From the NCBI GenBank assembly GCA_947456185.1, contig CANGPW010000011.1:1-52603 (forward strand): a stretch of DNA of 52,603 nucleotides, in the 5' to 3' direction. The stretch comes from Bacteroidota bacterium. Lineage in GTDB: Bacteria; Bacteroidota; Bacteroidia; UKL13-3. Below are positions 1-12,826 of the stretch, piece after piece; position 1 is the stretch's first letter; the number at the start of each line of letters is the position of its first letter. Below the pieces are notes generated by a model that was not told the DNA's origin, did not search any database, and worked only from the letters and a program-made list of their open reading frames with translations. Position numbers and translations under genes: made by a program.

Positions 1-1122
1 CCATTCATTGGTCAATTACCCAGTTTTACCAATTGGACAAAATATACAAATGGCATATCGAGTGCAATTACTAATTATGCAACTACCGAAAATGTTAACA
101 ATGCTGTTACATGGTTAAAAACACAAACCAATAAACCAGTGTTTCTTTGGTTGGCTTTCAATGCGCCTCACGAGCCGCTGCATTTACCACCATTGACTTT
201 ACATAATTATAAAACTTTATCAGGAACTGCAATAGATATTAAGAATAATCCAAAGCAATATTTTAAAGCCATGATACAAGCCATGGACCATGAAATAGGA
301 AGATTATTTGATTCGTTAAAGGCAATGAACAGATTTGACAGCACTGATTTTATATTTATTGGTGACAACGGAAACACGCCTCGCACGGCACAAATAGCCG
401 ATACATCAAAAGCCAAAGGAACGGTTTACCAATATGGAGTTCATACACCTATGATCATTGCTGGACCAAGTGTGGTTAATCCAAATAGAATTTGTAATGC
501 ATTAACCAATACAGTTGATTTATTTTCAACGTTGTTGGAATTAAATGGATTTACAAATTGGCAAAATCAAATTCCAGTGAATAAACCTGTAGATAGTAAA
601 AGTTTAATGCCATTGATAAAAAATACTGGAACAGAAATTAGACCTTGGCAGTTTTGTGAAATATTTAAATTGCAGCATGATTCATTTGAAGCAAAAGCCA
701 TTAAAAATATGGATTACAAACTAATTCATTTTGATTATGGAAAGACGGAATTTTATAATTTAAAAGCTGATCCATTAGAAACCAATAATCTTTCCTATAG
801 TTCAATGTCAGTAGATGAAAAAAATAATTACGATTATTTATGTACCCAATTTACTCAATTAACAAGTACAAGCGCAGGTTGTACTGTAACTGGTAACAAT
901 GAAATAATCAATGAATCTGCTTTAAAAGTTTATCCAAATCCATTTACCAAATATATTCAAATAGAAAACAATAAAGCTAATACAGTTGTTGTTTTATATA
1001 ATTCAATAAGTGAAAAAATATATGAGGGTACACAAATTGAATTGCAAGATTTTTCAAACTTAGCAAAAGGTATTTACTTTTTAAAATTAGAAAATCAATC
1101 AAGAGCAATTATTAAAGAATAA
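1..1122 (+). CDS. Sulfatase family protein, 5'-truncated by the window edge, with C-terminal T9SS sorting domain
   Basis: Frame 1 is open from base 1 (PFIGQLPSFTNWTKY...), so the GTG at 139 is internal. 'FLWLAFNAPHEPLHLPP', 'FIFIGDNGNTPRTAQ' and 'YKLIHFDYGKTEFYNLKADPLETNNL' are typical of the sulfatase C-terminal half. C-terminus 'KVYPNPFTKYIQIE...GIYFLKLE' is a T9SS CTD. Confidence 0.88.
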   Translation, partial: PFIGQLPSFTNWTKYTNGISSAITNYATTENVNNAVTWLKTQTNKPVFLWLAFNAPHEPLHLPPLTLHNYKTLSGTAIDIKNNPKQYFKAMIQAMDHEIGRLFDSLKAMNRFDSTDFIFIGDNGNTPRTAQIADTSKAKGTVYQYGVHTPMIIAGPSVVNPNRICNALTNTVDLFSTLLELNGFTNWQNQIPVNKPVDSKSLMPLIKNTGTEIRPWQFCEIFKLQHDSFEAKAIKNMDYKLIHFDYGKTEFYNLKADPLETNNLSYSSMSVDEKNNYDYLCTQFTQLTSTSAGCTVTGNNEIINESALKVYPNPFTKYIQIENNKANTVVVLYNSISEKIYEGTQIELQDFSNLAKGIYFLKLENQSRAIIKE

Positions 1123-1162
1123 AAATTAAATATAATAACAAACCTATTAAATCATAAAAGCC

Positions 1163-2524
1163 ATGAAAAAAAACACCATCCTATTTTCTATTTTATTGTT
1201 TAGCATGATTGCAAATGCACAAACAAATCCAGCCATTTTAAATTGGTTACAAAACACCACAGTAACAGGTCGTCATTATGTAAAAAATAATTCTACTCCT
1301 ATTGTGGATGCTGCATTAGCAAATTGCCAAAGTATTAAATACTCCGCAACTTCAGTTTATGTGGCTACCAACGGAATTCCAACTTATATTACGGGTCCAT
1401 TTCAAGACGGAAATCCATCGTTGGCCACAGCACAAAACGCAATTTTTAAATTACCTTTAAACCCTGCTCAAAATACTGGTGTAGCAAATGCAACAACTGG
1501 TGGAAATATTGGATTATTTATTAACGGTGTAGCTTTATTTGATTACAGAGATGGAGTGTCGTGGCAAAATTCTACTAGCACGTTAAAAGGTGGTCCATTA
1601 GGAGGCATGGGTGATGGCGCTTGGAATAGAGATGCAGTAGTTGGCGAAAGACTTGGATTCGATTGTTCAAAGGCGCATCCTGCCATGGGTAATTACCATC
1701 ATCATCAAAACCCAAGTGCATTTAGTTTAGATTTAAAATCTATTTCAGATGTTTGTAAACTATATGCTTCAGATGGTTTATATGCCATTGATTCTAGTAA
1801 ACATTCACCATTAATTGGTTTTGCTTATGATGGTTTTCCTATATACGGAGCATATGCTTATAAAAATGCAGATGGAACAGGAGAAATTACAAGAATGAAA
1901 AGTAGTTATACATTAAGAAATATGACTACCAGAACAACCAATGCAAGCGGAACAGCTGTAACCGCTGGACCAGATGTAAGTACAACTTATCCACTAGGAT
2001 ATTTTAGAGAAGACTATCAATACAATGTTCCTGTTAGTTCGTCTCAAGATTATTTAGATTCACACAACGGACGTTTTTGTAAAACACCGGAATATCCAAA
2101 TGGAATTTACTGCTATTTTGCTACTGTAGATCAGAATTGGAATTCGGCTTATCCATATGTAGTTGGCCCAACATTTTATGGTATAAAATCTGCTACAAAA
2201 GTTACCTCAATTACAGAAACAGTTACTACATACACTCCTGGTGGAAACACTGGAATTAATAAAAGTGAATTAGATGAATCAAAAATCAATGTATTTCCTA
2301 ATCCAGCAAAAGATTTTATTGCCATTCAATTAAATCAACTAACAAAAAATAATATTGATGTAGAACTTTATGATTTAACAGGAAGATTGCTTCAAAAAAC
2401 AGTTTTATTTCAAGGAAGTACCATTGTAAACTTTGACACCAGAACCTTATATGAAGGAACTTATTTAATCAAAATCATTGGCAATGGTAATGTGGTGACT
2501 AAAAAAATTATCATTTCAAAATAA
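1163..2524 (+). CDS. YHYH domain-containing protein, signal peptide and T9SS sorting domain
   Basis: N-terminal signal peptide MKKNTILFSILLFSMIANAQ; 'HPAMGNYHHHQNP' and 'SPLIGFAYDGFPIYGAYAYKNADGTGEI' are YHYH-family motifs; C-term 'INVFPNPAKDFIAIQ...GTYLIKIIGNGNVVTKKIIISK'. Confidence 0.85.
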   Translation: MKKNTILFSILLFSMIANAQTNPAILNWLQNTTVTGRHYVKNNSTPIVDAALANCQSIKYSATSVYVATNGIPTYITGPFQDGNPSLATAQNAIFKLPLNPAQNTGVANATTGGNIGLFINGVALFDYRDGVSWQNSTSTLKGGPLGGMGDGAWNRDAVVGERLGFDCSKAHPAMGNYHHHQNPSAFSLDLKSISDVCKLYASDGLYAIDSSKHSPLIGFAYDGFPIYGAYAYKNADGTGEITRMKSSYTLRNMTTRTTNASGTAVTAGPDVSTTYPLGYFREDYQYNVPVSSSQDYLDSHNGRFCKTPEYPNGIYCYFATVDQNWNSAYPYVVGPTFYGIKSATKVTSITETVTTYTPGGNTGINKSELDESKINVFPNPAKDFIAIQLNQLTKNNIDVELYDLTGRLLQKTVLFQGSTIVNFDTRTLYEGTYLIKIIGNGNVVTKKIIISK

Positions 2525-2526
2525 AG

Positions 2527-2560
2527 ACAAAAACGCCTCCATTAAATGAGGCGTTTTTTT
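2527..2560 (+). terminator. Rho-independent terminator hairpin
   Basis: aaaacgcctc-cattaaat-gaggcgtttt followed by a T run, directly after the YHYH gene stop codon. Confidence 0.8.
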
Positions 2561-2572
2561 ATCTATTTATTC

Positions 2573-3037
2573 ATGCACATAAAGTTAGTTATAATATTAG
2601 TTTTCTTTTTTATTGCTCATAAACCAATTGCTCAAAACATTCAAGTTTTAAAATTTGATGCTTTAAAGCAATGCATATATAATAACTCTGACACGGTGTA
2701 TGTAGTTAATTTTTTTGCATCGTGGTGCAAACCATGTATAAAAGAAATACCTGAATTTGTAAACTTTGCCAAAGGCATAAAAAACAGTAAAATTAAATTA
2801 GTTTTTGTAAGTTTAGATTCAAAAAATGACCCGGAGAAATTATTGAAAATAATTCAGCAATACAGTTTGCAAAATGTATATTTATTGGATGAAACAAATG
2901 CCAATAATTGGATCAATAAAATAGACAAGCATTGGAGTGGCGCTATTCCTGCTACATTAATTATAAAAAAAGGAAAAAATAAAAAGTTCATTGTTGATGC
3001 AATTAGCTGCGAAACATTATTTAAATTCACCAAATAA
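2573..3037 (+). CDS. TlpA-like thioredoxin-fold protein
   Basis: 'VVNFFASWCKPCIKEIPEFVNFAK' has a WCxPC active site; hydrophobic N-terminus. The ORF start at 2546 lies inside the terminator hairpin, so the ATG at 2573 (MHIKLVIILVFFF) is preferred. Confidence 0.85.
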   Translation: MHIKLVIILVFFFIAHKPIAQNIQVLKFDALKQCIYNNSDTVYVVNFFASWCKPCIKEIPEFVNFAKGIKNSKIKLVFVSLDSKNDPEKLLKIIQQYSLQNVYLLDETNANNWINKIDKHWSGAIPATLIIKKGKNKKFIVDAISCETLFKFTK

Positions 3038-3043
3038 AATTAC

Positions 3044-3652
3044 ATGAAAACTATCAAATCATTGTCAATATTATGGATTACTTTATTAATAATTTCTACC
3101 AATTCATTTGCTCAGAAAAACAATAAAGACATTGTTGATTTTAAACTAAAAAACGTGGATGGAAACTTTGTTTCATTAAGCGATTATCCAGATGCAAAAG
3201 GTTTTATCATTGTTTTTACTTGTAACCATTGTCCGTTTGCAAAACTATATCCTCCCCGACTGATTGATTTAAACAATAAATTCAAACCATTGGGTGTGCC
3301 ATTGATTGCTATTAGTTCAACCGATACCATGATGTATGAAGAAGATACTTATCCAAACTTGGTGATAAAAGCCAATGAAGAGCATTTCAATTTCCCTTAT
3401 TTATTTGACGAAATGCAAGTAGTTGCTAAAAATTTTAAAGCACAAAAAACACCACACGCATACGTAATTTGGAAAGAAAACAACCAGTGGGTTGTTAAAT
3501 ACAACGGTGCGATAGACGACAATGGAATGGAACCAGAAAAAGTAACCGAATCATATGTATCAAATGCCGTTTATGAACTGCTGGCTAACCAACTTGTAAA
3601 AACAAGTGAAACAAAATCAATCGGTTGCCAAATAGCTTTTAGAAGAAAATAG
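3044..3652 (+). CDS. Secreted redoxin / AhpC-TSA-like thioredoxin-fold protein
   Basis: Signal peptide; 'DGNFVSLSDYPDAKGFIIVFTCNHCPFAKLYPPRLIDL' with CNHC redox motif; 'KTPHAYVIW'. Confidence 0.82.
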   Translation: MKTIKSLSILWITLLIISTNSFAQKNNKDIVDFKLKNVDGNFVSLSDYPDAKGFIIVFTCNHCPFAKLYPPRLIDLNNKFKPLGVPLIAISSTDTMMYEEDTYPNLVIKANEEHFNFPYLFDEMQVVAKNFKAQKTPHAYVIWKENNQWVVKYNGAIDDNGMEPEKVTESYVSNAVYELLANQLVKTSETKSIGCQIAFRRK

Positions 3653-3705
3653 TTTGATTTAAACCTTTTTTAGTTTTCAAAATCTATAAAAAAATTTCAA
3701 ATTAT

Positions 3706-5355
3706 ATGAAAAAAACTCAAAGGTTAGCTGGAAAGTATTATTTATTCACATTTTTAACAATTGGATGCTTAAATTTAAAAGCACAAAACAAAACCATTAT
3801 TTTAGGAAGGCCAACTGATAATTCAGTAACTATTAGTATTGCCTTTGATCAAAACGTGGAATATCTTTTTGAATATGGAATTCAATCAGGTGTTTACACA
3901 AACACATCAGCTGTTTTCACAAATATAGTCAATACTCCTGATGAAAAAGATTTGACCGGCTTAACTGCAAATACAAAATATTTTTACAGGGTAAAGTATA
4001 AAACTGTTGGCGCTAGTAACTATATAATAAGCAATGAGTATGCTTTTATAACCCAACGAACTAAAGGCAGCACATATACTTTTACCATTGAATCGGATGA
4101 GCATTTATACGACAAAAAAGGAGTGAAAAGCATGTATCAAGTTTGCTTAAATAACCAAGCCAACGATAAGCCCGATTTCATGCTTTCATTAGGCGATATA
4201 TTTGGCGATGATCACAATCCATTTACCATCACCTCGGCAGAATTAGATGTATTACATGCTAATTACAGGCCTTTTTTAGGAAGCATTTGCCATTCCATAC
4301 CTTTTTATGTTTGCCTAGGAAATCATGAAGGTGAAAACGATTATTATTTAGGGAAAACTCCTCCAAATAACTTGGCTATTTGGGGAACTTTAGCTCGTAA
4401 AAATTATTATCCAAATCCATTTCCAAATTCATTTTATTCTGGTAATACTGATGTAGAACCTTATGGTGTGGGCAATCCGGAAAACTATTATGCTTGGACT
4501 TGGGGTGATGCACAATTTATAGTTTTGGATGTTTATAGAGATGAGTGTGATACTTCTGCTAAGCCTCAAGGTTGGAACTGGAGTTTAGGTTTACCACAGT
4601 ATACATGGCTGAAAAACACATTGGAAGCCAGCACCTCAAAATACAAATTTGTATTTGCACACCATATTCGCGGACAAGGAAGAGGTGGTGTGACCAATGC
4701 ACAATTATATGAATGGGGCGGATTAAATAAATTAGGTGGAACCAACACTTTTGCTGCCAACAGACCAGGTTGGGCCAAGCCTATTCACCAATTATTTATT
4801 GACAATAAAGTAAATATTTTCTTTCAAGGACACGACCATGTTTTTGCTCACGAAGTTTTAGATAGTATTACATATCAAGCATTGCCAATGGCGGCAGATT
4901 CTACATATGAAATTGGTATGTTGGCCAATGCTGATGCTTATGTTTCAGATACAGTGGCAGGAACAGGGCATTTAAGAGTAACTGTTTCCCCAATTAATGT
5001 AAAAGTTGATTTTGTTCGTGCATATTTACCCGCTGATACTTTAAGTGGTGCTCATAAAAATGGAGAAGTGGCTTTTTCATATACTGTTGGAGGTAAAACA
5101 AATGTTGGTGTAAACGATGTATTAGCAATAGCTGATTTGAAATTATACCCAAACCCTGCAAGAAATGAAGTTACCATCCTTTCTAGTCAAAATTACAAAT
5201 TAGAAGAAGTAACAATATACAATTCTGTGGGACAATTGCAGTTACAAACTCCTATAAATACATTTGATATCAGTAATTTTTCAAATGGAATTTACTTTGT
5301 AAATATCAAAACTGAAAATGCACTTGTTGTAAAAAAATTAGTAGTAAATAAATAA
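3706..5355 (+). CDS. Purple-acid-phosphatase-like metallophosphoesterase with N-terminal Fn3-like domain and T9SS sorting domain
   Basis: Motifs 'ESDEH', 'LGDIFGDD', 'LGNHEGE', 'FAHHIRGQ', 'FQGHDH'; N-terminal 'GRPTDNSVTISIAF...LFEYG'; CTD 'LKLYPNPARNEVTI...GIYFVNIKTENALVVKKLVVNK'. Confidence 0.9.
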   Translation: MKKTQRLAGKYYLFTFLTIGCLNLKAQNKTIILGRPTDNSVTISIAFDQNVEYLFEYGIQSGVYTNTSAVFTNIVNTPDEKDLTGLTANTKYFYRVKYKTVGASNYIISNEYAFITQRTKGSTYTFTIESDEHLYDKKGVKSMYQVCLNNQANDKPDFMLSLGDIFGDDHNPFTITSAELDVLHANYRPFLGSICHSIPFYVCLGNHEGENDYYLGKTPPNNLAIWGTLARKNYYPNPFPNSFYSGNTDVEPYGVGNPENYYAWTWGDAQFIVLDVYRDECDTSAKPQGWNWSLGLPQYTWLKNTLEASTSKYKFVFAHHIRGQGRGGVTNAQLYEWGGLNKLGGTNTFAANRPGWAKPIHQLFIDNKVNIFFQGHDHVFAHEVLDSITYQALPMAADSTYEIGMLANADAYVSDTVAGTGHLRVTVSPINVKVDFVRAYLPADTLSGAHKNGEVAFSYTVGGKTNVGVNDVLAIADLKLYPNPARNEVTILSSQNYKLEEVTIYNSVGQLQLQTPINTFDISNFSNGIYFVNIKTENALVVKKLVVNK

Positions 5356-5363
5356 CAGCTATT

Positions 5364-7079
5364 ATGAAAAAATTTACACTCATCATTGCCATCATCACAT
5401 CATTTTACTATAATTCAAAATCACAAAATTTAATTCATAGTGAACTATTAGGTCGCCCAACTCAAAATTCAATTACTGTTCAAGTTTTTTTTGATACCGC
5501 TGTATATGCCAGCATTCAATATGGAACAGCAAGTGGCGTATATCCAAATCAAACCAATTGGCAAACATTTGCCGTGAATGAACCCACGGAAATTGAATTA
5601 AAAAATTTAACAGAAGATACAAAATATTTTTATCGATTAGCATACAGGAAACCAAACACTACCAACATCATTTTCAGACCAGAATTTACTTTTCAAACTA
5701 GTCGTAAATTAGGATCAAGTTTTTCGTTTACTATACAAGCCGATCCACATGTGGATGAACAAACTGATACAGCATTGTATCGTTTATGTTTACAAAACCA
5801 GCTAGAAGATAAACCTGATTTTATGATTGATTTAGGCGACTTTTTGATGTCGGATAAATTAACCAATGCATCTAAAGTTATTCAAAGAGATACTGTCACT
5901 TTTCGTTGTCATTTATTGCGTTCGTATTATGAATCAATAGTACATTCTGTTCCTTTGTTTATTGCCCTTGGCAACCATGAAGGTGAAGCTGGTTGGCAAT
6001 TAAATAATACTACAAATAATGTAGCTGTTTGGGGGACTTTAGATAGAAAAAAATATTTTACCAATCCAATTCCTAATACTTTTTATACAGGAGATACGAT
6101 TGTTCACCCATTTGTAGGTCAAAGAGAAAATTATTATGCATGGCAATGGGGCGATGCATTATTCATAGTACTAGATCCATATTGGTATACCAGTCCAAAA
6201 CCTGATTCATTAAATGGTTGGCGCTGGACATTAGGAAAAACGCAATATAATTGGTTGAAGTCAACCTTAGAAAAAAACAATTCCAAATTTAAGTTTGTGT
6301 TTGCACATCAAATTATTGGTGGCGATCCTGATGGACGTGGCGGTGTGGAAGTAGCCGATTTATATGAATGGGGAGGAAATAATTTAAATAATACCCGTGG
6401 CTTTGAAACCAACAGGCCAGGTTGGTATAAACCCATTAAAGATTTATTGGCTGAACATCGGGTAAATATTTTCTTTCATGGTCACGACCATTTTTTTGGT
6501 AAACAAGAAAAAAATTGTTTGTATTATCAAGAAATTCCTCAACCCAGTCATCCTAATTTTACTTCAACCGGGCAAGCTACTAAATATGGTTATAAAGAAG
6601 GGCAAATATTACCTGGTTCTGGTCATTTGAAAGTTACAGTTGATGGAAATGGTGCTAAAATAGATTATGTGAGGGCTTATTTACCTAAGAACGAAACCGG
6701 TTCAAGAAAAAACAAAGACATTTCCGCTACTTATTATATTGGTACTTTAAATTGTTATGATTCATTGAATACTGGCTCTCCAGTATTATGGAACAAAAAC
6801 TATGTAGATGAACTTTCTTATCCTAATCCGTTTTCAAATGAAATAAAAATTGAGTTTTCAATTTTAGAAACTCAAAAAATAAACCTAGCTATTTTTAATC
6901 AGCAAGGGCAAATAGTAAAAAATTTAATAGATAATAGATTGGTGCTAAAAGGTGCTTTTCAAATTATATGGGATGGAAATGATTTTAATAATAATCCATT
7001 GCCCAATGGAACTTATTATTACAAACTAATAGGAGAAAACAATATAAAATCAAGTAATAAAATTATTATTGCACGCTAA
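5364..7079 (+). CDS. Purple-acid-phosphatase-like metallophosphoesterase, FlgD-like/T9SS C-terminal domain
   Basis: Motifs 'QADPHVD', 'LGDFL', 'LGNHEGE', 'FAHQIIGG', 'FHGHDH'; C-term 'SYPNPFSNEIKIEFSI...LPNGTYYYKLIGENNIKSSNKIIIAR'. Confidence 0.9.
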   Translation: MKKFTLIIAIITSFYYNSKSQNLIHSELLGRPTQNSITVQVFFDTAVYASIQYGTASGVYPNQTNWQTFAVNEPTEIELKNLTEDTKYFYRLAYRKPNTTNIIFRPEFTFQTSRKLGSSFSFTIQADPHVDEQTDTALYRLCLQNQLEDKPDFMIDLGDFLMSDKLTNASKVIQRDTVTFRCHLLRSYYESIVHSVPLFIALGNHEGEAGWQLNNTTNNVAVWGTLDRKKYFTNPIPNTFYTGDTIVHPFVGQRENYYAWQWGDALFIVLDPYWYTSPKPDSLNGWRWTLGKTQYNWLKSTLEKNNSKFKFVFAHQIIGGDPDGRGGVEVADLYEWGGNNLNNTRGFETNRPGWYKPIKDLLAEHRVNIFFHGHDHFFGKQEKNCLYYQEIPQPSHPNFTSTGQATKYGYKEGQILPGSGHLKVTVDGNGAKIDYVRAYLPKNETGSRKNKDISATYYIGTLNCYDSLNTGSPVLWNKNYVDELSYPNPFSNEIKIEFSILETQKINLAIFNQQGQIVKNLIDNRLVLKGAFQIIWDGNDFNNNPLPNGTYYYKLIGENNIKSSNKIIIAR

Positions 7080-7088
7080 AAAAATCAC

Positions 7089-8696
7089 ATGAAGAAAATA
7101 ATTACCATCATTACCATTTGCTTATTGAGCCAAATTACATTTGCTCATAATGCCCACAATAGCCAATTCATTGCAAAGGAATGGAACATTGCAAAGCAAA
7201 ACAAAACAGTAGTTGGTTCATTTTTAATGTATAAAAATGGAAATGTTTTTATAGAAGATGTAAACGGAAACATTGCTAATTTTCCATTAACTTCTCTAAC
7301 CACTTACGACCAAAATTATATTTTAAATAAATATCAAGGAATTGAAAAATTAAACACTCAAAATAATAATGGCATTGCGCCTGCATCAGAAAAAACCTAT
7401 GATTATAAATATTTAATTGTGTTTTTATTTATTGTGATTATTTCATTTGGTATGTATCGTTTTACCAATAAAAAACAACTGCAATTAGTAACTCCACTTT
7501 TAATAATAAGTGCAAGTGTGACCTTATTTGGTTTTACAAAAGGTTTAATGAAAACCACCACAGATCCATTATTTGTAAACTCCGCTTTTGCTCCATTTAA
7601 GCCAGAGGTAAATACCCTTTACGATGCCAATTATTTTTATGTAGAATCGTTGGGATTACCAACTCACTTAATGATGGCAACTATTACAGGTTGGCAACAA
7701 CAATATCCAATTCCGCAGTGTTATGTTGGCACAAATGCATGGAGCATTCCTTTAAATCCGGTAAAAGCAACTACACCCGTTCCTGTTAATCAACAACATT
7801 TTTTAAGAGGTGCGGTGGCTGTGGCAGCCAATGGAATTGCCATATTTAATCCTTATACCAATACGGGTGTGGATGCATTTTTGGATGGACAGTTAGATAA
7901 TTTTGGTGGACATTGCGGACGAGCAGATGATTATCATTACCATACTGCTCCCCTATTTTTAGATAGTAAAACCACGGATATTATTCCTATTGCATTTGCC
8001 CTTGATGGTTATGCTGTTTATGGTGCTTTGGAACCCGATGGTACTGCAATGAAAACTTTAGATGCAAACCACGGACACGATGGAAGTAATGGCGTTTATC
8101 ATTACCACGGAACTACCACAGCTCCTTATATGATTGGAAATATGGTTGGAAAAGTAACTGAAGATTCTACTTTACAAATTATTCCTCAGGCTTCAGCCAA
8201 AGGAGTTCGTCCTGCTGGAACTCCACTTAAAGGAGCGGTAATAACGAGCTGCATTCCTAACGGAAATGGCAATGGTTACAAATTAACTTATACACTTGCG
8301 GGCGTTACTGATTCTGTAGTTTATAGCTGGACACCAGCCGGTGCTTATACTTTTAATTATTATGTTTCGGGCCTACTAACAACTACTAATTACAAAGGAA
8401 CTACCATTTGTACTTTACCAAATAACAATACCAATGCAAATGAAATTTCATGGAATAAACATGATTTTTCTGTTTACCCAAATCCAAGTAAGGAAATATT
8501 ATATTTACAATTAGAAAACAATACGCCAGCTAGCCAAGTGAAAGAAATAACTATTTACAGTTTAAATGGCACAAATGTTTTTACAGCTAATCAATTTGAA
8601 AAAACCATTGATTTAAAAAATTTTACTTTTGGAATTTATTTATTAAAAATTCAGTTTGCCGATATTCAAATTACTAAGAAAATTATTGTTCAATAA
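7089..8696 (+). CDS. YHYH domain-containing protein with SHD1-like N-terminal segment, two internal predicted TM helices and T9SS sorting domain
   Basis: 'GRADDYHYHTAPL', 'IAFALDGYAVYGAL', 'GVYHYHGTTTAPYMIG'; hydrophobic segments 'YLIVFLFIVIISFGMY' and 'LVTPLLIISASVTLFGF'; CTD 'FSVYPNPSKEILYLQ...GIYLLKIQFADIQITKKIIVQ'. Confidence 0.85.
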   Translation: MKKIITIITICLLSQITFAHNAHNSQFIAKEWNIAKQNKTVVGSFLMYKNGNVFIEDVNGNIANFPLTSLTTYDQNYILNKYQGIEKLNTQNNNGIAPASEKTYDYKYLIVFLFIVIISFGMYRFTNKKQLQLVTPLLIISASVTLFGFTKGLMKTTTDPLFVNSAFAPFKPEVNTLYDANYFYVESLGLPTHLMMATITGWQQQYPIPQCYVGTNAWSIPLNPVKATTPVPVNQQHFLRGAVAVAANGIAIFNPYTNTGVDAFLDGQLDNFGGHCGRADDYHYHTAPLFLDSKTTDIIPIAFALDGYAVYGALEPDGTAMKTLDANHGHDGSNGVYHYHGTTTAPYMIGNMVGKVTEDSTLQIIPQASAKGVRPAGTPLKGAVITSCIPNGNGNGYKLTYTLAGVTDSVVYSWTPAGAYTFNYYVSGLLTTTNYKGTTICTLPNNNTNANEISWNKHDFSVYPNPSKEILYLQLENNTPASQVKEITIYSLNGTNVFTANQFEKTIDLKNFTFGIYLLKIQFADIQITKKIIVQ

Positions 8697-8702
8697 CAAT
8701 TC

Positions 8703-9947
8703 ATGAAAAAACTATTTAACTTCTCTTACACTATTTTTTTATTGTTTGCACCAATCTGTGCAATGGCACAATACAAAGGAACAGCCTCTATAACGCAGGG
8801 AGCTGCCAATGTTGTAACCACTAATTTATATACTTGCACTGGAGGAAGAATAGCAGGTGTTGGAGCAATAAAAGCAAGCGATAGTTCCGTTTGGACGGTT
8901 CCCGCTGCGGTGAATTTTACCAATACTTCGTTTCCATTTTCGTCCGACTTAAACAATGTTTGTAATGGAAATAATTATGCAAATGTAAGCGCAGCTTTGG
9001 CAGCATTAAATGGCTCTGATATTGTTACGGTAGATGCCGATGGTGAAGTGATTACAGCCTATATATTTGCCGACAATTATTTTGAAATGTATATCAATGG
9101 AACACCAGTTGGAAAAGACAAAGTTCCATTTACACAATTCAATTCTAGCATTGTTCGGTTCAAAGTAAAACGCCCTTTTACCATTGCCATGCACCTCATA
9201 GATTGGGAAGAAAACTTAGGTTTAGGTTCAGAATTAAATGGTGGTTTTGCTTATCACCCTGGCGATGGCGGTATGGTAGCCGTTTTTAAAGATGCGAGCA
9301 ATAACATCATTGCTAAAACTGGAAGTGATTGGAAAGCTCAAACCTTTTACACTGCTCCCATTACCGATTTATCTTGTCCAACTGAAAGTGGCAACAGCCG
9401 ACTTTCAACAAATTGCAGCACCGCTAATTCAAACGATGGAAGTAAATATTATGCCTTACATTGGACCAAACCAGCAAACTGGCAAGCTACCACATTCGAT
9501 GATTCAACTTGGCCAAATGCATTTACTTACACTAACGCAACTGTTGGTGTAGATAACAAACCAGCTTATACCAATTTCGTCAGTATTTTTGATGATGTAA
9601 ATAATGATGCTCAATTTATTTGGAGCAGTAATTTAATTTTGGACAATGAAGTAGTGGTTCGAAAAACGGTAAGTGTTCCTAGTAAAATAGAAGAAACAAA
9701 TGGATTAAATAACAATATTCAAATTTATCCGAATCCAGCAAATACGGATATTTACATTGATTTGATAAATAACTTAAATGCTAAAACAATTCAAAACATC
9801 AGTGTTTATAATTTATTGGGAGAAAAAGTTTTTGAAAGCAATGCTTATATCCATCAAATACCTGTAAGTAATTTTAGTAAAGGAGTTTATTTGTTAAAAA
9901 TTGATATGAATGAAATGTTATTTACCAAAAAAATCATCATAGAATAA
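8703..9947 (+). CDS. Secreted protein of unknown function, possible jelly-roll domain, T9SS sorting domain
   Basis: Signal peptide; 'KPANWQATTFDDSTWPNAFTY...VVVRKTVSVP' resembles a galactose-binding-like fold; CTD 'IQIYPNPANTDIYIDL...GVYLLKIDMNEMLFTKKIIIE'. Confidence 0.75.
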   Translation: MKKLFNFSYTIFLLFAPICAMAQYKGTASITQGAANVVTTNLYTCTGGRIAGVGAIKASDSSVWTVPAAVNFTNTSFPFSSDLNNVCNGNNYANVSAALAALNGSDIVTVDADGEVITAYIFADNYFEMYINGTPVGKDKVPFTQFNSSIVRFKVKRPFTIAMHLIDWEENLGLGSELNGGFAYHPGDGGMVAVFKDASNNIIAKTGSDWKAQTFYTAPITDLSCPTESGNSRLSTNCSTANSNDGSKYYALHWTKPANWQATTFDDSTWPNAFTYTNATVGVDNKPAYTNFVSIFDDVNNDAQFIWSSNLILDNEVVVRKTVSVPSKIEETNGLNNNIQIYPNPANTDIYIDLINNLNAKTIQNISVYNLLGEKVFESNAYIHQIPVSNFSKGVYLLKIDMNEMLFTKKIIIE

Positions 9948-11185
9948 TGAAAAAATCAATCATCACTTCGCTCCTATTTTTAATCAGCGTTTTTACATTT
10001 GCTCAAAGTGCTACCAAAAGTATGCTTCGATTACCTGATACAGGACAAAAAAATAGTTATACCAATACCTTTGGCGAAGACAATGATTATTCCATAAACT
10101 TACCATATTATATTGATAATAAAAATGGAACCATTACTGATACCATTACGGGTTTAATGTGGCAGCAAACTGATGGTGGTGAAATGACGATAGAAAATGC
10201 CAGAATTTATTGTGATACATTAACATTGGGAGGATTTACCAATTGGCGATTAGCCAACGCACATGAAGCATTTAGTATATTGAATTTACAAAATAACAAT
10301 CCTGCTTTAGATATTTTATATTGTACCAAAACCGTAGCACAATATTGGTGGACAAGCGACAAGCAAGTCAACGATGCCAATAAAATATGGTGTACCAATG
10401 CTGGTGGTGGAATTGGAAATCACCCGAAAACAGAAACCATCAGTGCAGGTGGAACAAAATATTTTAACGTAAGAGCGGTTAGAGATATAACAACACCGCC
10501 CGTAATTTCAAATCATTTTACCGATAATGGCAATGGAACTATCACCGACAATTTAACCAATTTAATATGGCAAAAAGAGCCAAATACCAATGCTATTACT
10601 TGGGAAAATGCCATTTTGTACGCCAATAATTTAATACTTGAAAACGACAGTGATTGGCGTATGCCAAATATCAAGGAAATACAATCTTTGAATGATGAAG
10701 GATTTGTAAATCCTTCAGTTAACACCAGTATATTTAGTAATATTGGTGTAAAGAAATATTGGTCATCTACCTCACAACAAAATCAAGTAGCCAATGCTTG
10801 GTATTGGAATACACAATTTGGAATTACTACTTACGACCCTAAAATCAATAGTAATTATGTCATTTGTGTAAGAACAAAAACAAGTAATTCATCAATTAGT
10901 ATTAATGCGATTGAAAGAACGAAAACTGAATTTATGGTTTATCCAAATCCTGCAAATAATAAAGTGAATTTTGTATTTAATAATTTTGATAAAACACCCA
11001 TAAAAATAACTGTTTACAATAGCCTTAATCAAAATGTTTGGGAACAAAAGAGTGAAATTATTGGAATGAATTCATTGGAATGGAATACTGAAACCATGTT
11101 ACCTGGAATTTATTATTACCAAATAGAAAGCATTAAAAATAATGAGTCGGTTTATCAATATGGAAAGCTATTATTGAAGCACTAA
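9947..11185 (+). CDS. DUF1566 (Lcl C-terminal-like) protein with two tandem domains and T9SS sorting domain
   Basis: Two copies of 'NGTITDxxTxLxWQ...W+NA...WRxxNxxEhxSL'; CTD 'FMVYPNPANNKVNFVF...GIYYYQIESIKN'. ATG overlaps the upstream stop by 1 nt. Confidence 0.82.
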   Translation: MKKSIITSLLFLISVFTFAQSATKSMLRLPDTGQKNSYTNTFGEDNDYSINLPYYIDNKNGTITDTITGLMWQQTDGGEMTIENARIYCDTLTLGGFTNWRLANAHEAFSILNLQNNNPALDILYCTKTVAQYWWTSDKQVNDANKIWCTNAGGGIGNHPKTETISAGGTKYFNVRAVRDITTPPVISNHFTDNGNGTITDNLTNLIWQKEPNTNAITWENAILYANNLILENDSDWRMPNIKEIQSLNDEGFVNPSVNTSIFSNIGVKKYWSSTSQQNQVANAWYWNTQFGITTYDPKINSNYVICVRTKTSNSSISINAIERTKTEFMVYPNPANNKVNFVFNNFDKTPIKITVYNSLNQNVWEQKSEIIGMNSLEWNTETMLPGIYYYQIESIKNNESVYQYGKLLLKH

Positions 11186-11191
11186 TTATTG

Positions 11192-12826
11192 ATGAAAAAA
11201 CTTTATTTTATTTTCTATTTATCCTTTATAAATTTTGGAGTAAATGCGCAAACATTCAACGAAATATTAGGTCGCCCTACCGATTCTACCATTACCATGA
11301 GCATTTTATTTAACCAAAATGTAACTGTATATTGGGAATACGGAACTACTTTAAATGCATTAAACTTTAAAACACCAACTTATTCAGCAGCTATAGATAC
11401 GCCACTAGAAATAGATTTTACAGGTTTAATTCCTAATACTAAATATTATTATCAAACTTGCTACAAAGCAATTGGAAGCAGCTCTAATTTTTTATTTGGA
11501 AACATCCATTCATTCCAAACACAAAGAAGCATAGGAAGTAGTTTTACATTTACTATTGAAGCCGATGAACATTTGTATGACCCATCGCAGGGATCGCCAA
11601 AATTGTATCAAATTAATTTAGCCAATCAAAAAAAAGATTCAGGTGACTTTCTGATTTCATTGGGCGATATTTTTGGCGATGATCACACACCAAATACTAC
11701 AACGAGTGCGCAAATGAAAGCCAAACATTTGTTTTATAGACAATATTTAACTTCATTATGCAGCTCTTCTCCTTTCTTTATTTGCTTAGGAAATCATGAA
11801 GGTGAAAATGATTTTTTATTGAGTCAAACTCCTCCCAATAACATTGCTACTTATGCCACTTTATGGCGAAAATTTTATTACCCCAATCCGAGTCCTAACA
11901 CCTTTTATTCGGGAAATAATTTGGAAGAAAATTTTGGAATGGGAAAGCCTGAAAATTATTATTCATGGACATGGGGCGATGCACTGTTTGTAGTATTAGA
12001 TAGCTATAGAGACCAATGCGACACTAGTGTGAATCCTAAAAAATGGAATTGGAGCTTAGGATTACCGCAATATTCTTGGTTTAAAAATGTGTTGGAAAGC
12101 AGCAAAGCAAAATACAAATTTGTATTTGCTCATCATACCAATGGCCAACAAAGAGGTGGAATTAATTCGGCTAAATATTTTGAATGGGGAGGTTACGAAG
12201 CTTCAAAAACTGGTCCTCCAGTATATAAGTTTGATATAAATAGACCAGGTTGGTCAAAGCCCGTTCATCAATTAATGGTGGACAATCATGTAAATATTTT
12301 CTTTCAAGGACACGATCATTTATTTGCACATGAAACATTAGATGGAATCATTTATCAAGAAGTTCCAATGGCTGCCGATTCAACTTATAAAAGCGGAATA
12401 ACAGATTGGGGAAGTTTTTATACTAAAGATACATTGGCTGGTGCCGGTCATTTAAACGTTCTGGTATCGCCCGATTGCGTGCAAGTAAATTATATACTTG
12501 CCTATTTACCTCAAGATACTTTGGAGAATAATAAAAATGGAACGGTAGCTTTTAGTTATACTATTGGAACATGCATTACCAATACAAAAACTTTTGAATC
12601 TGATGATGCTATACCTTTGAATATTTATCCGAATCCTTTTTCTTCAAAAATAAAATTAAATGAAGAATATGCTCATGAATTAATCCAATTATGGAACATA
12701 TATGGACAAATAATTTATGAAGGAAATAATCTTGAAAACGAAGATTTTTCAAGTCTTGAAAAAGGTATTTATATTTTAAGAATAAATGGTAAAACTACAT
12801 TTACTAAAAAATTAATTAAAGAGTAA
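11192..12826 (+). CDS. Purple-acid-phosphatase-like metallophosphoesterase with T9SS sorting domain (paralogue of 3706-5355)
   Basis: Same motif set 'EADEH', 'LGDIFGDDH', 'LGNHEGEND', 'FAHHTNGQ', 'FQGHDH'; CTD 'LNIYPNPFSSKIKL...GIYILRINGKTTFTKKLIKE'. ATG at 11192 preferred over the in-frame TTG at 11189. Confidence 0.9.
   Translation: MKKLYFIFYLSFINFGVNAQTFNEILGRPTDSTITMSILFNQNVTVYWEYGTTLNALNFKTPTYSAAIDTPLEIDFTGLIPNTKYYYQTCYKAIGSSSNFLFGNIHSFQTQRSIGSSFTFTIEADEHLYDPSQGSPKLYQINLANQKKDSGDFLISLGDIFGDDHTPNTTTSAQMKAKHLFYRQYLTSLCSSSPFFICLGNHEGENDFLLSQTPPNNIATYATLWRKFYYPNPSPNTFYSGNNLEENFGMGKPENYYSWTWGDALFVVLDSYRDQCDTSVNPKKWNWSLGLPQYSWFKNVLESSKAKYKFVFAHHTNGQQRGGINSAKYFEWGGYEASKTGPPVYKFDINRPGWSKPVHQLMVDNHVNIFFQGHDHLFAHETLDGIIYQEVPMAADSTYKSGITDWGSFYTKDTLAGAGHLNVLVSPDCVQVNYILAYLPQDTLENNKNGTVAFSYTIGTCITNTKTFESDDAIPLNIYPNPFSSKIKLNEEYAHELIQLWNIYGQIIYEGNNLENEDFSSLEKGIYILRINGKTTFTKKLIKE

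Follow-up and report, generated by a model that had tools for sequence, protein, structure and literature searches.

Two recurring gene modules with YHYH proteins in a Bacteroidota genome and their possible part in extracytoplasmic metal handling

The window examined here is a stretch of 52,603 nucleotides which makes up an entire contig (C11 of genome G000) of the draft genome, in 127 contigs, of a freshwater member of the Bacteroidota, and its first 12,826 positions hold a block of ten genes, including two for YHYH proteins, mostly encoding cargo of the type IX secretion system (T9SS). Rather than one conserved operon, the block is a joining of module B (g1-g4) with module A (g5-g10), each of which recurs separately in other Bacteroidota. 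It is proposed, with belief and doubt in equal measure, that both modules belong to one extracytoplasmic system for handling transition metals, with copper as the likeliest metal. The original prediction had left a choice between metal handling and the scavenging of sulfate and phosphate esters; the first is favoured here by MbnP/MbnH, multicopper oxidase, SCO1 and HupE/UreJ-2 genes near YHYH genes of relatives and by an N-terminal histidine in the second YHYH protein, and the second draws its weak support from the enzymes, with no phosphate-uptake family among the neighbour families that recur in at least 4 of about 100 loci.

Modular structure and conservation of the block

The ten + strand open reading frames first listed were all recovered at their coordinates, and Pfam bore out their families: Sulfatase, two YHYH, two thioredoxin-fold, three Metallophos and a tandem Lcl_C (DUF1566) protein. 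Module B starts with an S1-type sulfatase (g1, 1..1122; PF00884, PF16347, PF18962) which lacks its N-terminus, and the start of the operon is beyond view, because base 1 of the window is the contig edge. It is followed by YHYH1 (g2, 1163..2524; PF14240 at 194 bits, PF18962), a TlpA-like thioredoxin (g3, 2573..3037; PF00578) and a redoxin (g4, 3044..3652; PF00578), the last two with the predicted WCKPC and CNHC motifs respectively. Module A is composed of metallophosphoesterases 1 and 2 (PAP1, g5, 3706..5355, and PAP2, g6, 5364..7079; both PF00149 and PF18962), YHYH2 (g7, 7089..8696; PF14240 at 57.7 bits, PF18962), a protein of no known family (g8, 8703..9947), whose orphan status holds as Pfam matches only its tail (PF18962), the tandem Lcl_C protein (g9, 9947..11185; PF07603 at 155.7 bits) and metallophosphoesterase 3 (PAP3, g10, 11192..12826; PF00149, PF18962), for which an ATG at 11192 is a more likely start than a TTG at 11189. 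In YHYH2 clusters g10 is an addition seen only in the window and close relatives. The eight T9SS tails previously noticed (g1, g2 and g5-g10) score above the cut-off of Por_Secre_tail (PF18962/TIGR04183, the type A C-terminal sorting domain), the tail of YHYH2 matches the solved T9SS tails 8glk and 8glj, and the translocon protein SprA is present in the genome (2445 bits). Rfam and tRNA scans gave no match, and a simple promoter scan found no more matches than in shuffles.

Between g2 and g3, on the + strand, there is a hairpin of canonical terminator shape (2529..2558, AAAAACGCCTC-N8-GAGGCGTTTTTTT, an 11-bp stem with a T run). The listed start of g3, 2546, falls within it, and the credible start is therefore the ATG at 2573. 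The hairpin is identical in congener G002 and not present in congeners G001 and G005, where a gene occupies its position between YHYH1 and TlpA; in G005 this gene encodes, according to Pfam, a T9SS-tailed multicopper oxidase. Such a gene was presumably lost at this point in the window genome, and positions 2529-2573 may be a deletion scar, with the hairpin in place of the oxidase gene. Genomes G004 and G007 carry its two halves, as far as the cluster is concerned, on separate contigs. It is this hairpin/oxidase site together with the split in G004 and G007 that divides the block into two modules; transcription as one unit is doubtful because a terminator-like hairpin separates g2 from g3, so the earlier picture of a single co-expressed unit is weakened. 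The order in module A is PAP1-PAP2-YHYH2-[g8]-Lcl_C-[HupE/UreJ-2], and in module B it is sulfatase-YHYH1-[multicopper oxidase]-TlpA-redoxin, YHYH1 elsewhere standing with MbnP-MbnH.

This gene order is found again in several genera, more often than by chance, and the pairing of YHYH with metallophosphoesterase extends well past close strains. A scan of 84,980 species genomes revealed at least 563 loci with relatives of YHYH2, and among the best 80 of them Lcl_C occurs in 65, PAP2 in 40, PAP1 in 34, HupE/UreJ-2 in 32, g8 in 28, a Spy-like protein in 17, an extracytoplasmic function (ECF) sigma factor in 15 and the sulfatase in 14. The gap between adjacent core genes of one strand has a median of 8 nt and does not exceed 60 nt in 89% of cases. 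PAP1-like genes were detected in 14 of 77 relatives and share the contig of YHYH2 in 12 of these 14, one weak partial match being counted as negative (Fisher p 2e-10, where p-values assume independent genomes, though relatives are not). In 46 relatives strong tandem Lcl_C proteins are confined to these clusters, if the cluster with PAP genes in G016, on a contig that stops before any YHYH2, is included. In an even sample of the phylum 8 of 198 genomes gave a match; the cluster is therefore widespread but patchy. At one locus from another class of the phylum (L177, G102:C13) YHYH2 scores 529 bits against 524 for the window's own protein, which hints, by sequence score, at transfer between classes.

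The modular structure also fits an accretion of two functionally unrelated T9SS gene groups, adjacent by chance in this genus and one other, as would be expected from the hairpin and from the unlinked modules of G004 and G007. This explanation is considered quite unlikely, since the pair of multicopper oxidase and redoxin together with YHYH1 has repeatedly joined YHYH2 elsewhere (L060, L062, L069, L088, L096, L124, L131 and L133) and the same kind of regulatory triad stands ahead of either module. The triad comprises an ECF sigma factor, a small, presumably anti-sigma-like protein and a Spy/Metal_resist protein, in this order and mostly with short gaps, and it precedes PAP1-PAP2-YHYH2, YHYH2-Lcl_C-HupE, multicopper oxidase-redoxin-YHYH2 and MbnP-MbnH-sulfatase-YHYH1. 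That one type of triad fronts each module is the best evidence that both serve one purpose, and the ten genes of the block may be expressed together in this strain. The match of the Spy-like protein to PF13801 (Metal_resist) is barely at the cut-off, and its candidacy as a CnrX-type metal sensor was dropped as the conserved His ligands are missing.

Metal-protein neighbours and the YHYH2 protein

Of the 43 YHYH1-type genes, 22 have MbnP (PF20243) no more than 10 kb away, where 0.6 would be expected. In relatives, YHYH1-type genes adjoin MbnP together with a MauG-like di-haem protein (MbnH-type, PF03150), and 16 of 17 PF03150 proteins beside MbnP have two CxxCH motifs. A T9SS-tailed multicopper oxidase and a CNHC redoxin adjoin YHYH1 or YHYH2 in relatives, and the copper-ligand motifs HWHG, HxFHxH and HCH of the oxidases are intact. 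Three distant Bacteroidota loci have SCO1/SenC directly after a short YHYH gene or one gene further. Copper is regarded as the likeliest metal since MbnP, multicopper oxidase and SCO1 all belong to families of copper proteins. The redoxin of g4 type is usually adjacent to the oxidase in relatives, in the order oxidase-redoxin, and accompanies it at least as often as it does YHYH; it follows that the suggestion of a redox pair maturing the YHYH proteins is not the best reading. In relatives, the neighbourhood of YHYH1 resembles MbnP-MbnH and CorA-CorB/MopE (PMC3621798, PMC3912023) in placing an MbnP-family protein beside a MauG-like di-heme protein.

Some further loci should be mentioned. In the window genome itself, contig C127 (L035, 1-3147) carries an edge-cut multicopper oxidase gene, a redoxin gene and a YHYH1-type gene (51% identical). 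The short YHYH proteins that stand with SCO1/SenC at L162, L183 and L184 form a subfamily of about 255 aa, and in two of these loci a small MORN-like protein is encoded in between. At another distant Bacteroidota locus (L045) a PEBP with EF-hands, YHYH and metallophosphoesterase are found together.

YHYH2 is built of a signal peptide, a histidine, an SHD1-like domain (a sub-threshold match), two hydrophobic segments, the YHYH domain and the T9SS tail. Of 80 YHYH2 proteins, 79 have the histidine immediately behind the signal peptide, against 0-2 such proteins in each other secreted family, the end of the signal peptide being set by a simple signal-core rule, not by SignalP. In g7 it is His20 (codon 7146..7148, + strand), predicted to be the first residue of the mature protein and invariant in an alignment of 10 sequences. 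The hydrophobic segments (7410..7535, by hydropathy) enclose a loop with 165 K/R against 24 D/E in 55 homologues and are predicted to form an inner-membrane hairpin. The YHYH domain of g7 (7560..8423) was modelled by AlphaFold2 with pLDDT 94.9 and pTM 0.93; Foldseek found no PDB match for it at E<=0.001, and PDB sequence searches with YHYH domains and the PAP1 ectodomain yielded no relevant homologue. Proteins exported by the T9SS are normally soluble in the periplasm. As far as hydropathy can tell, g7 is not soluble cargo free of membrane anchors, and its plain surface export is uncertain because two hydrophobic segments flank a positive loop ahead of the T9SS tail. The predicted hairpin and the T9SS tail occur together in nearly all YHYH2 homologues, a combination at odds with the usual model of T9SS export.

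In relatives a HupE/UreJ-2 gene comes after Lcl_C or YHYH2. The only such gene of the window genome is located on contig C58, where a small secreted protein gene is divergent from it (L140, 8265-9560); the small protein is presumably DUF6702-like and matched no NCBIfam model. At L077, L079, L096 and L134 a transporter which by eye resembles NRAMP-type metal importers lies on the opposite strand near the HupE end. Known anglerases Ang-1 and Ang-2, whose Ang domains are fused to HupE/UreJ-2, bind Cu2+ with a Kd of 62-74 nM (PMC12537917), and the neighbours of Ang-2 include metallophosphatases (PMC12537917, Franco Cairo et al. 2025). The clusters described here share with them the predicted N-terminal His after signal cleavage, the HupE/UreJ-2 partner and, as for Ang-2, the metallophosphatase neighbours. 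In contrast to anglerases, YHYH2 and HupE are encoded by separate genes, and the histidine of YHYH2 leads an SHD1-like domain, then the membrane hairpin, the YHYH domain and the T9SS tail. The anglerase architecture is met with on a Deinococcus plasmid, where 4 bp separate a YHYH gene from a following HupE/UreJ gene whose product has a predicted mature N-terminal His.

In the metal-handling mechanism the YHYH proteins would bind metal. YHYH2, with its N-terminal His and His-rich YHYH domain, may capture it either within the periplasm or on the cell surface and pass it to the HupE/UreJ-2 permease where this is co-encoded, and copper binding and oxidation could be the joint task of YHYH1, MbnP-MbnH, multicopper oxidase and redoxin. 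As for the secreted hydrolases, the metallophosphoesterases and the sulfatase would be co-regulated enzymes using or accompanying the handled metal. A bolder version, tentative and rather doubtful, is that YHYH2 is a ‘split anglerase’, in which an inner-membrane hairpin displays the His-led domain and the YHYH domain, a fold with no PDB counterpart, hands a metal that is probably copper to a HupE/UreJ-2 permease encoded apart from it and provisions the co-encoded secreted metallo-hydrolases.

Several points weigh against metal handling. The cluster of the window has neither HupE nor multicopper oxidase, and an MbnP-MbnH pair is located outside the window, on contig C10 of the same genome. In contrast to established MbnP-MbnH systems, the MbnP and MbnH matches score below the NCBIfam equivalog cut-offs (28-42 of 140 bits for TIGR04052, 196-208 of 363 bits for TIGR04039). 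No triad was found at the window cluster, whose upstream end is missing, and no His is conserved across 18 aligned homologues of the Spy-like protein. Furthermore, metal handling has no need of phosphatases or a sulfatase. YHYH genes on Rhodobacterales plasmids lie beside PEBP, not metal genes, so that the idea of a constant pairing of YHYH with metal genes had to be given up; at L157, L159 and L161 the neighbour is a PEBP of YbhB/YbcL type. Other plasmid copies of YHYH have no informative neighbour.

Hydrolases and competing explanations

The three metallophosphoesterases (g5, g6 and g10) have the metal-binding motifs DxH, GDxx, GNHE, AH(H/Q), which is AHH in g5, and GHDH. They share with purple acid phosphatases (PAP) and PhoD-like enzymes the Metallophos core and a PAP-N/PhoD-N-like N-terminal region, but the Tyr of GDxxY is absent (GDIFG, GDFLM and GDIFG), and matches to Pur_ac_phosph_N and PhoD stay below the cut-off. 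As this Tyr defines PAP, they are not purple acid phosphatases, which corrects the earlier label ‘PAP-like’. A full-length ortholog of g1 (L037) reads CSSTR-TSILTG, with the Cys retained and Pro replaced by Ser.

These enzymes are at the core of the ester-scavenging branch, the main idea of the original prediction. In the form weighed here, T9SS-exported phosphoesterases and a sulfatase would act on dissolved organic matter at the cell surface and free its phosphate and sulfate, and YHYH would be a further metal-dependent hydrolase. In agreement with this, the phosphoesterases have intact metal-binding motifs, the sulfatase keeps its Cys, and a Zn-dependent hydrolase activity has been predicted for YHYH in phage tails (PMC7824862). 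Nevertheless, no phosphate transport, uptake or sensing family is present among the neighbour families recurring in at least 4 of about 100 loci, many YHYH2-Lcl_C loci lack both phosphoesterase and sulfatase, and MbnP/MbnH, multicopper oxidase, SCO1 and HupE are left unexplained. Ester scavenging is therefore thought unlikely, and it keeps some probability because the hydrolases look active and may themselves be what the system is for, the metal parts then providing their cofactors.

It could also be imagined that the cluster serves attachment to algal or diatom surfaces and their degradation, g8 and Lcl_C binding glycans while the hydrolases and YHYH modify the polymer. The model of g8 is a beta-sandwich (pLDDT 89, pTM 0.90) that weakly matches a GH78/lectin-like fold, Lcl_C is similar to the adhesin Lsa25 and YHYH is among the prevalent families of diatoms (PMC11992049). 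The Foldseek matches of g8 are not significant, however, so that g8 is not claimed to be a lectin, and glycoside hydrolase, lyase and SusC/D families do not recur in the loci, which makes this explanation very improbable.

Implications for YHYH proteins

No description of the cluster was found in the open-licence literature searched, in which YHYH is named in three papers and is likewise not joined with metallophosphoesterase or SCO1. No role is known for the YHYH proteins of bacteria, phages and diatoms. The neighbourhood of copper-binding, copper-oxidising and copper-delivery proteins and of HupE/UreJ, combined with a near-invariant N-terminal His, yields a testable claim for them, and if the ‘split anglerase’ were true, it would provide the first function for the YHYH family. 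For lake Bacteroidota, this is a widespread and unnamed secreted gene cluster which may link metal supply with extracellular phosphatase and sulfatase activity.

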